Shown: in pieces, positions 27,648 through 29,545 of the stretch | Layout: the number at the start of each line of letters is the position of its first letter | Numbering within the stretch: position 1 is the first letter of the stretch | NCBI GenBank assembly: GCA_009691785.1 | Contig: SIAM01000026.1 | Span: 1 to 32,142 of the forward strand | Source: Phycisphaerales bacterium | GTDB taxonomy: Bacteria > Planctomycetota > Phycisphaerae > Phycisphaerales > SM1A02 | Length of the DNA stretch: 32,142 nt | Direction of reading: 5' to 3' | Program-made: the position numbers and the translations under genes | Notes under the pieces: generated by a model | Databases searched by the model: none | Seen by the model: the letters and a program-made list of their open reading frames with translations, nothing else | What the model was told of the DNA's origin: nothing

Positions 27648-28388
27648 CTACGGCGTGAGCGCCTTCAAGATCAGCACCACGTCGCTGCCCTCGGGTGGAA
27701 TGCGCGCGGTGTTGGCTTGCCAATGCGGTGTTGCAATTTCCGCTTGATCGGGAATCACTTGCGCGTAGGCGACAAGTTCATCGCCAAAGGTCACAAGGCC
27801 CACGATGCTGCCCGTGACATCCGCCGTGTAGCGCTTCCCACCGCGGCCGTCTGCTTCAAAGTGGCTGCCCGCGAATACAAATATGGATTTGAATTGATCC
27901 TGATGGCGCGCGTCCTCTATCCACTCGCCCAAATCGCAGCGGCGCGTCACGCCGTCCATTACATATTGAACTTGCACGCTTAACACATCGCCCGCGGGCG
28001 GCTCCAGTTTCAAATCGTTTGTCGTGGACTTATCGCGGCTCCATATTCCAGGGTGTGTTGCGTGTGCGCCCACGGCCAACAAGGCGGCGTGAATATGCGA
28101 CGCGGCCACATTGACAACAATCAACGACTCGTGCTCGCGTGTTCCCTTGAAGCACACCAATTGCTCTAGAAAACCTTGCCGAATAGCCACTTTGCCACGC
28201 ACCAGAACTTCGCCAGCGCTTTGGTTGATTAAAAGGCCATTCGCCAGATTTATTTCAACCGCACTAGTGCTGGGCGCCGAAGTTGGCGCCGGAGTTGGCG
28301 CCGGCGTAACTAACGCTGTTGGCGGGGTGCAACCACATATATGCAACACAATGCAAAGCGCCGCAGCTATTTGATATTGCAACGCCAT
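27648..28388 (-). CDS. YdjY-domain lipoprotein
   Basis: The 246-residue protein begins with a lipoprotein signal; the lipobox ends at Cys20 (HICGC). A proline/alanine/threonine linker (TPAPTPAPTSAPSTS) follows. The domain from about residue 45 has VRGKVAIRQGFLEQLVCFKGTREHESLIVVNVAASHIHAALLAVGA, the core of the YdjY domain, which is common in Planctomycetota proteins but of unknown function. The start is set at the ATG at 28388; a TTG two codons earlier is possible. It leads the ruvC-trpE set. Product function cannot be assigned. Confidence 0.8.
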   Translation of the reverse strand: MALQYQIAAALCIVLHICGCTPPTALVTPAPTPAPTSAPSTSAVEINLANGLLINQSAGEVLVRGKVAIRQGFLEQLVCFKGTREHESLIVVNVAASHIHAALLAVGAHATHPGIWSRDKSTTNDLKLEPPAGDVLSVQVQYVMDGVTRRCDLGEWIEDARHQDQFKSIFVFAGSHFEADGRGGKRYTADVTGSIVGLVTFGDELVAYAQVIPDQAEIATPHWQANTARIPPEGSDVVLILKALTP

Positions 28389-28506
28389 GGTCAAGGCAAT
28401 GCTAACCCACTGAAGTCACACCGCTTGCTGGGTGCGAACATCTGTTTCTACAAGCAATTTCAATAGCCACGCAAGGTGTATCTGGGCGGGGTTCATTTGG
28501 GCAAAT

Positions 28507-28543
28507 AAAAAAGGCTCAGCGGAGGCAAGCCTCACGCCGAGCC
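28507..28543 (-). terminator. strong intrinsic terminator in the leader of the YdjY-ruvC-trpE set
   Basis: On the minus strand GGCTCGGCG (from 28543) pairs with CGCTGAGCC (to 28513) and the inner GAGGC with GCCTC, one mismatch and one bulge, AA/TT loop. Six T residues follow at 28512-28507. The direction is leftward, toward the gene at 28388. Confidence 0.75.
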
Positions 28544-28610
28544 CTTCCGGGGGCTTGGTAATGCTCGAAGTCTATCCCCTTACGCAGTACAATTCAAGAA
28601 ATACGACCTA
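28507..28610 (-). ncRNA. candidate small RNA or attenuated leader, about 100 bases
   Basis: A minus-strand transcript starting near 28610 would end at the T-run at 28507. A promoter-like pair lies upstream: TTGCAT at 28645-28640 and TATTTA at 28622-28617, with a 17-base gap. Before the terminator there is a second hairpin, AGCCC (28555-28551) with GGGCT (28544-28540), whose 3' arm overlaps the 5' arm of the terminator stem. Either structure can form, but not both. No known RNA family was recognised. Confidence 0.35.
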
Positions 28611-28699
28611 AAATGATAAATATTTTAAAAAAGTTTGATATGCAAGGATTGCTAATTACAAGTTGGGGTCTACGCCACTACTTATATGACTTACGGGGA

Positions 28700-28726: not shown

Positions 28727-28765
28727 TATTCGCTCACGCATGAATGGCGTGGATAGTCTTTGGAC

Positions 28766-29545
28766 ATGCTGCTGTGCCGAACCGTTCGCTTTGCCCTGTC
28801 ACCAACGCGCCCCGTTGATCTGATTTGCCCTAAAACCAACGCCTATGCGGCTTGGCCAAGCGCGCAGGGCTGGCACGCGCATATTTCTTTAGAAGTTGTG
28901 ATTGCCGGCGTGCCCGATCCGCGCACGGGCTACCTGATTTCCATTTCAGAAATTGATGAAATTACGCGTCGAAAAGCTCTTCCCTTGCTCGACCAGGCGT
29001 TCCGCTCTGGTGGCGCTCAGGAATTGTCTTTACAGCCCATCGCCCAGGCCTTAAAAAATGAAATGCCCTTTCCGTTGCAATCCATCACGCTTGTGCAAAG
29101 CAACTTTCTTTCATTCTTCTACGAGGTTTCCATGCCCAACCACGCCACCATGACTCAATCGTTTGAATTTGCCGCCAGCCACCGCCTGCACTGCGACGAT
29201 CTTGACGCCGCCACCAACTTGAAGATTTTTGGCAAGTGCAACAACGCAGCGGGCCACGGCCATAATTATCGAATTGAAGTTTCTGTTCGCACGCTGATTC
29301 AGGATCCACCCAAAGTTCGGCTTGATCAACTTGAACACGTGGTGCGACAGAATGTGATCGTCAAACTTGACCACAAGCATTTGAACACCGATGTTCCCAG
29401 CTTTGCCAAGCACAATCCAAGCGTTGAAATGATCGCGCGTGTTTGCCACGACTGGTTGGTTCAACCCATCAAGGATGTGGGCGGAGAACTTGTTCGTGTG
29501 CGCGTGTGGGAAACCGAAAAGACCTCGGCTATGTACCCAAGTTGA
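28766..29545 (+). CDS. two-domain 6-pyruvoyl-tetrahydropterin synthase / QueD family protein
   Basis: The 259-residue protein has two halves that both resemble the PTPS/QueD fold. The C-terminal half (about 125-259) is complete: SFEFAASHRLHC, the catalytic cysteine and zinc histidines in GKCNNAAGHGHNYRIEV, KLDHKHLNTDVP and the ending VRVWETEKTSAMY. The N-terminal half (about 5-120) has HAHISLEVVIAGVPDPRTGYLISISEIDEI, like HGHNYxLEVxVxGxxDPxTGMVxDFxxL, but the first zinc histidine, the cysteine and the DHxxLN motif are missing. A single-domain QueD has about 120-140 residues. Function is in queuosine or pterin synthesis; no other queuosine gene is adjacent, so the exact reaction is open. Confidence 0.85.
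   Translation: MLLCRTVRFALSPTRPVDLICPKTNAYAAWPSAQGWHAHISLEVVIAGVPDPRTGYLISISEIDEITRRKALPLLDQAFRSGGAQELSLQPIAQALKNEMPFPLQSITLVQSNFLSFFYEVSMPNHATMTQSFEFAASHRLHCDDLDAATNLKIFGKCNNAAGHGHNYRIEVSVRTLIQDPPKVRLDQLEHVVRQNVIVKLDHKHLNTDVPSFAKHNPSVEMIARVCHDWLVQPIKDVGGELVRVRVWETEKTSAMYPS

Follow-up and report, generated by a model that had tools for sequence, protein, structure and literature searches.

Between a 6-pyruvoyl tetrahydropterin synthase-like gene and a divergently oriented gene for a YdjY-domain lipoprotein-like protein, itself followed by ruvC (PF02075) and trpE-like (PF00425) genes, the minus strand of a Phycisphaerales contig carries a strong intrinsic terminator. Does this terminator belong to an attenuator of the genes downstream, or does it end a small RNA in its own right? 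The sequence-only reading had proposed the former and given the latter as the other explanation. The locus lies in a window (the whole stretch of DNA analysed) of 32,142 nt, which is contig C63 of a 2.19-Mb genome in 77 contigs from the Planctomycetota, a phylum with unusual cell biology. ARAGORN found nothing in the window, and Rfam 15 returned no match there at gathering scores, the best sub-threshold scores being 20.6 bits (cut-off 51.4) and 19.9 bits (cut-off 50).

We consider it probable that the locus holds a free-standing small RNA (sRNA) gene of about 56 nt, belonging to a Phycisphaerales-wide family that is proposed to act independently of Hfq and to make contact through a run of C. 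Its status as a gene is well supported; its transcription, stability, ends, pairing mode and targets we infer from sequence. The features are collected in Table 1.

Table 1. Features of the sRNA locus in the window.
Feature	Coordinates	Strand	Basis
ydjY-domain lipoprotein-like gene, downstream of sRNA	27648..28388	-	NCBIfam NF040466, E 4.3e-37
-10-like TAGCAT, 10 nt before ydjY ATG	28399..28404	-	TANNAT in close relatives
39-codon frame, GTG start within terminator stem, peptide not conserved	28416..28535	-	
Predicted sRNA, ~56 nt, both ends predicted	28507..28562	-	Conservation block, fold, covariance model match
U-tract, intrinsic terminator	28507..28512	-	Sequence; terminator scan
Terminator hairpin, single bulged U, CUUG loop	28513..28543	-	Covariation
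Alternative hairpin AGCCC/GGGCU (28555-28551 with 28544-28540), exclusive with terminator	28540..28555	-	
Invariant C-rich motif GCCCCCGGAA, proposed contact site	28545..28554	-	Enriched before T-runs vs controls, 10 genomes
-10-like TAGACT, 17-nt spacer from TTGAAT	28569..28574	-	Alignments; weak in window
-35-like TTGAAT, conserved proximal promoter	28592..28597	-	TTGA in 9/9 aligned close copies
6-pyruvoyl tetrahydropterin synthase-like gene, divergent from sRNA	28760..29545	+	Pfam PF01242, E 9.2e-30

Promoter, ends and fold of the predicted RNA

When nine close copies were aligned, the block from ATTACCAAGCC to the U-tract was nearly invariant, and the -10 element and the upstream TTGA were kept too. 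Conservation was lost between this proximal promoter and RNA block and the TANNAT element with the ydjY ATG. The promoter pair suggested earlier (TTGCAT at 28645-28640 and TATTTA at 28622-28617), from which an RNA of about 100 bases would start, was unconserved even in close relatives. Because the conserved promoter lies nearer to the RNA than that pair, we shorten the predicted sRNA to about 56 nt, and its position would place the start at about 28562; the covariance model match in the window's own genome spans 28500-28570.

In the window the proximal pair TTGAAT-17-TAGACT has 8 of 12 consensus bases when scored by eye, and a strict consensus promoter scan with a cut-off of 9/12 found none at this site. 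Relatives carry TATAGT (several close ones) or TATTAT in place of TAGACT, and the position of TTGAAT agrees with the promoter peaks across a set of 168 dissimilar copies, which was obtained by merging identical 60+40-base contexts (leaving 192) and then those at least 70% identical upstream. Promoter-like pairs were found in 69 of these 168 copies (shuffles: 8.7, sd 3.3); the commonest distance of the -10 element before the motif was 16-25 or 30-50 bases. Since a small hairpin tends to fold in the 5' segment of copies lacking a near promoter (n=135, mean z -1.05; visible by eye in many) and less so where one is present (n=33, mean z -0.09), the RNA comes in two builds: a short leader, C-run and terminator, or a 5' hairpin, A/U-rich linker, C-run and terminator.

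The strong minus-strand terminator that had been noticed in the sequence stands: the 56-nt RNA folds with -28.8 kcal/mol (z -3.86), a value equalled by none of 200 shuffles. The second hairpin described with it does draw on bases of the terminator, which makes the two mutually exclusive, but at -7.9 kcal/mol (z -1.27) it was equalled by 22 of 200 shuffles and is thus not beyond chance. It never varies in the 15 genus copies and so gives no covariation there, and it is lost in paralogues, where the C-run is kept. The locus shows an upstream promoter signal (weak in the window), a 3' intrinsic terminator and no conserved frame, as an intergenic sRNA gene would.

Distribution, covariation and the C-rich motif

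By DNA search, 15 of the 16 genus genomes contain the element, with 88-97% identity over 58-64 nt in most copies, whereas at the same loci YdjY falls to about 40% identity and the synthase to 35-42%. A first covariance model, built from the 15 genus copies, matched 160 of 181 family genomes in 44 of 45 genera and thereby locates the gene in roughly nine tenths of them; 97 of the 104 good-quality family genomes had a match, as did 175 of 301 genomes in a sample of the order, the family included. A second covariance model, applied to a phylum sample, matched 22 of 31 order genomes and 14 of 361 genomes outside the order, the latter never above 31.8 bits. Given the score gap we took these extra-order matches as background; two order genomes (G184 and G202) score about as weakly. 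Among 80 of the at least 119 stretches matched by a motif pattern scan, the labels included Phycisphaerae, Phycisphaerales, Phycisphaeraceae and other Planctomycetota, and virus contigs gave no match in one wide-pattern scan.

When the 21 unmatched family genomes were searched more sensitively, nine gave some match. Inspection of eight of these showed, in five (G143, G144, G145, G148 and G111), a diverged copy whose C-run is longer; the other three resemble a plain terminator or something unrelated. The ninth is a partial match (L365) in G068.

Covariance in relatives, which the sequence-only reading had named as a check, was found for the terminator stem. Three pairs were changed on both sides and no pair was broken among the 15 genus copies. 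In an alignment of 80 copies, which was fitted to the structure and is therefore biased in favour of covariation, 98.6% of stem cells were paired (83.3% when shuffled) and 10 of the 13 pairs showed double-sided changes, with 143 double changes in all, a result reached by none of 500 shuffles; sliding the pairing partners abolished the signal.

Sequence constancy narrows towards the C-run as more distant copies are compared. All genus copies share AAGCCCCCGGAAGGGCTC and most of the stem unchanged, and across the family the apical stem is free to vary, with compensation. In paralogues the stem base differs too (GGGCGGCGAG...CTCGCCGCC) and the GGG is replaced as well, giving GGAAGCCC, GGAAGCACCC, GGAAGCTCGC, GGAAGCTGCC or GGAATGG. 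One set of copies has GAAA in place of GGAA, and five loci (L358, L359, L360, L361 and L362, from four genomes of genus g38 and G111) have a run of C8-C9 followed by ACAAGGAG instead of GGAAGGG, a form that the first covariance model missed. Nearly all copies nevertheless have five or more C in a row, usually GCCCCCGGAA, immediately 5' of an intrinsic terminator (L290 has four C), and judged from these copies the C-run, predicted to be unpaired, is the most constant part of the family. In the sets selected by the motif (the pattern scan and the 168-copy promoter set) this constancy holds by construction, and the genus DNA search, the family covariance search and the sets of paralogues and diverged copies give the fairer view. 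As a control independent of the covariance models, the motif followed by N26-54 and TTTTT was present in 10/10 multi-copy genomes, against 0/10 for the reversed pattern and 0/10 for the permuted motif, although several of the matches, mostly in G230, were not obvious hairpins.

Pairs of copies, often at a short distance from each other, occur at L068 and in other genomes of genus g7, and at L165, L168, L191 and L234; one member of the pair has CCCCCGAAAGGG rather than CCCCCGGAAGGG.

Copies elsewhere, the ydjY link and candidate partners

In ten genomes chosen for several copies or good assemblies, we found 4 to 14 matches each at E 0.05 or better, the weakest of them doubtful. Several copies are also present in record CP050848, from a cultured Phycisphaerales strain. 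In G224 (C5:198604-198844), two or three motif-plus-terminator units stand in tandem within 250 bases. In G205 (2.5-3.2 Mb), six copies (L274, L275, L276, L278, L279 and L284) are GGAATGG variants that follow a repeated gene, which in five of the six stops some 45 bases short of the RNA; the frame at L274, as called, is shorter and further off. At L276, the sole one of the six scanned, this gene is a phage-type integrase (PF00589, PF02899). The six copies align through the gene end, promoter and RNA and diverge directly past the U-tract, and in this genome the sRNA thus marks one end of a repeated unit that is possibly mobile. One might read the whole family accordingly, as a dispersed terminator or mobile-element end with no regulatory role, and both the homology that stops at the U-tract behind an integrase-like gene and the high copy number in some genomes would fit. 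We regard this as highly improbable: within the family of the window's genome the element is mostly present once, in one syntenic place, downstream of no in-line gene; it has a promoter signal of its own, and constancy is highest in the unpaired C-run.

Another rival reading is a cis-acting attenuator of ydjY(-ruvC-trpE). Its terminator would stop RNA polymerase except where one of three things prevents this: the alternative hairpin, a ligand, or a ribosome that starts at the stem GTG, 6 nt behind the SD-like GGAAGGG. This reading draws on synteny, as a co-directional ydjY follows in 15/15 genus loci, 33/39 family loci and 7/20 order loci, and on a start codon, as 41 of 55 copies have an ATG or GTG 4-7 nt after the GGG. 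Yet ydjY is inverted in two of the family loci (G089 and G099) and absent within the stretch in four (the family loci are L065-L104 minus L084, a 100-base placeholder, so that 59 of 60 loci count, none of the stretches extending beyond about 2.5 kb), 13 of the order loci are without ydjY, many family loci carry ruvC on the opposite strand, and many copies lie away from ydjY altogether. Because the sRNA keeps its place beside the synthase gene at L088, L089 and L097, loci with ydjY inverted or not found, shared synteny is favoured over obligatory cis control. One copy in G205 (L285) likewise precedes a YdjY-like gene, and the ydjY link is therefore old in both families. Close relatives of the window also have a separate -10-like element directly before ydjY, and paralogues lose the GGG partner of the alternative hairpin, for which reason we rejected the hairpin as a general attenuator. 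With no conserved exclusive antiterminator and no constant in-line downstream gene, attenuation or a riboswitch as the general function, one of the two explanations offered by the sequence-only reading, is not borne out, and we judge it quite unlikely.

At the place of this start codon 14 of the 55 copies have neither ATG nor GTG, and the frames that open from it elsewhere run for 9 to 300 codons, with no conserved open reading frame among them. A leader peptide was accordingly rejected as a candidate, the frame in the terminator stem not being conserved; the absence of a Trp-rich leader, remarked on at the outset, holds, as the 39-codon frame of the window has one Trp and is unconserved. We also rejected a conserved start codon as the cause of the TG in the stem, since CTG, TCG and ACG occur at the same place, and the site is better described as a bulged pyrimidine with a G after it. 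The exceptions are L011, L013, L014, L015, L016 and L103, in which the frame from the stem GTG continues into YdjY with a lipoprotein-like signal peptide, GGAAGGG precedes the GTG and no better ydjY start is visible. Here the sRNA seems, from its sequence, to double as the ydjY translation start. Attenuation may be an added role in the few genomes in which ydjY starts inside the RNA, and the co-directional ydjY in most family loci may leave room for a cis role.

A search for Hfq (PF17209) was negative in 61 order genomes and positive in 5 of 14 controls, and CsrA was present in 61/61 order genomes, mostly in two copies. These counts, together with the GGA within the motif, which the first hairpin (AGCCC/GGGCU) would present in its loop as a CsrA site, could mean that the RNA works by binding protein, titrating CsrA or being escorted by it. 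Csr/Rsm decoy sRNAs carry several GGA motifs, indeed many, whereas the window RNA (28562-28507) contains one; moreover, one set of copies has GAAA instead, and CsrA binding leaves the constant C-run unexplained. We therefore find a protein-binding RNA of this kind unlikely. As to targets, the seed complement was not enriched before 907 gene starts, which were crudely taken as the first ATG of long frames. In the window's genome the motif complement TTCCGGGGGC is confined to the RNA gene; the 16 genus genomes together contain it 48 times, 15 times as the RNA gene and 33 times elsewhere, against 74 for the reversed control, and among the 30 of the 48 sites viewed as loci those outside the RNA gene were mostly within long frames. 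Because of this lack of enrichment before starts and the scarcity relative to the reversed control, pairing over the full ten motif bases is unlikely; if the sRNA pairs, it would do so over a shorter stretch, or it would bind protein. The rarity of TTCCGGGGGC could reflect avoidance of pairing or plain base composition.

Proposed action and comparison with known systems

A free small RNA, the other explanation given by the sequence-only reading, is the one we retain. It accounts for the promoter signal, the compact terminated unit, the conservation above that of the flanking proteins, the many paralogues elsewhere and the persistence of the element where ydjY is inverted or missing. In the action that we propose, the promoter directly upstream would start an RNA with a short A/U-rich leader (a small 5' hairpin in many genera), followed by the C-rich GCCCCCGGAA and the intrinsic terminator. 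During transcription the C-run would pair briefly with the GGG, and formation of the terminator would then release it as a single strand. This C-rich stretch would serve as the contact site, most likely by pairing with short G-rich stretches in mRNAs, and the RNA would act without Hfq, perhaps helped by CsrA.

A more far-reaching picture makes this RNA the central Hfq-free riboregulator of the order, with an ancient copy by ydjY and paralogues multiplied to a dozen or more, some beside integrases, all sharing the C-rich site and CsrA as partner, and one lineage using the RNA as the ydjY translation start; we hold it to be doubtful, if conceivable. Apart from that picture, the family has a defined motif, strong covariation, an order-wide spread and, within the family of the window's genome, mostly a single syntenic copy. 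With CsrA found in the hosts and Hfq not, sRNA action without Hfq becomes testable there.

Among the papers searched, none turned up that describes an sRNA from Phycisphaerae or reports this C-rich family. Closest by description are SmelA075/SmelA099 of Rhizobiales, which, as presented in PMC3927594, likewise combine a constant C-rich motif and proposed contact site with diverged stems and a spread within one group; their motif CCUCCUCCC is there placed in three or four hairpin loops and called anti-Shine-Dalgarno, whereas here GCCCCCGGAA occurs once, in a single strand before the terminator, and no relation in sequence was apparent. RNAs of the LhrC/RsaE type from Firmicutes also have a C-rich contact site, and LhrC is multicopy and does not need Hfq for its target, but these RNAs belong to another phylum, carry UCCC motifs, three per LhrC molecule, and have known targets according to the account in PMC4132741, which mentions a GGA motif as well. 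SR1 of Bacillus subtilis, a base-pairing sRNA helped by CsrA, provides the setting proposed here; it is described in PMC8501984 as a dual-function RNA that encodes a small protein, and we claim no homology. The Csr/Rsm decoys, as outlined in PMC7652899, resemble the present RNA in being GGA-containing sRNAs in several copies with CsrA present. Rhodopirellula-1 is a candidate structured RNA that PMC2864571 lists for Planctomycetes but also for Proteobacteria, whereas the Phycisphaerales family has no strong match outside the order; compared by listed distribution only, identity of the two is unlikely. The RNA is thus probably a member of an undescribed sRNA family of a known kind, order-wide, terminated and C-rich.
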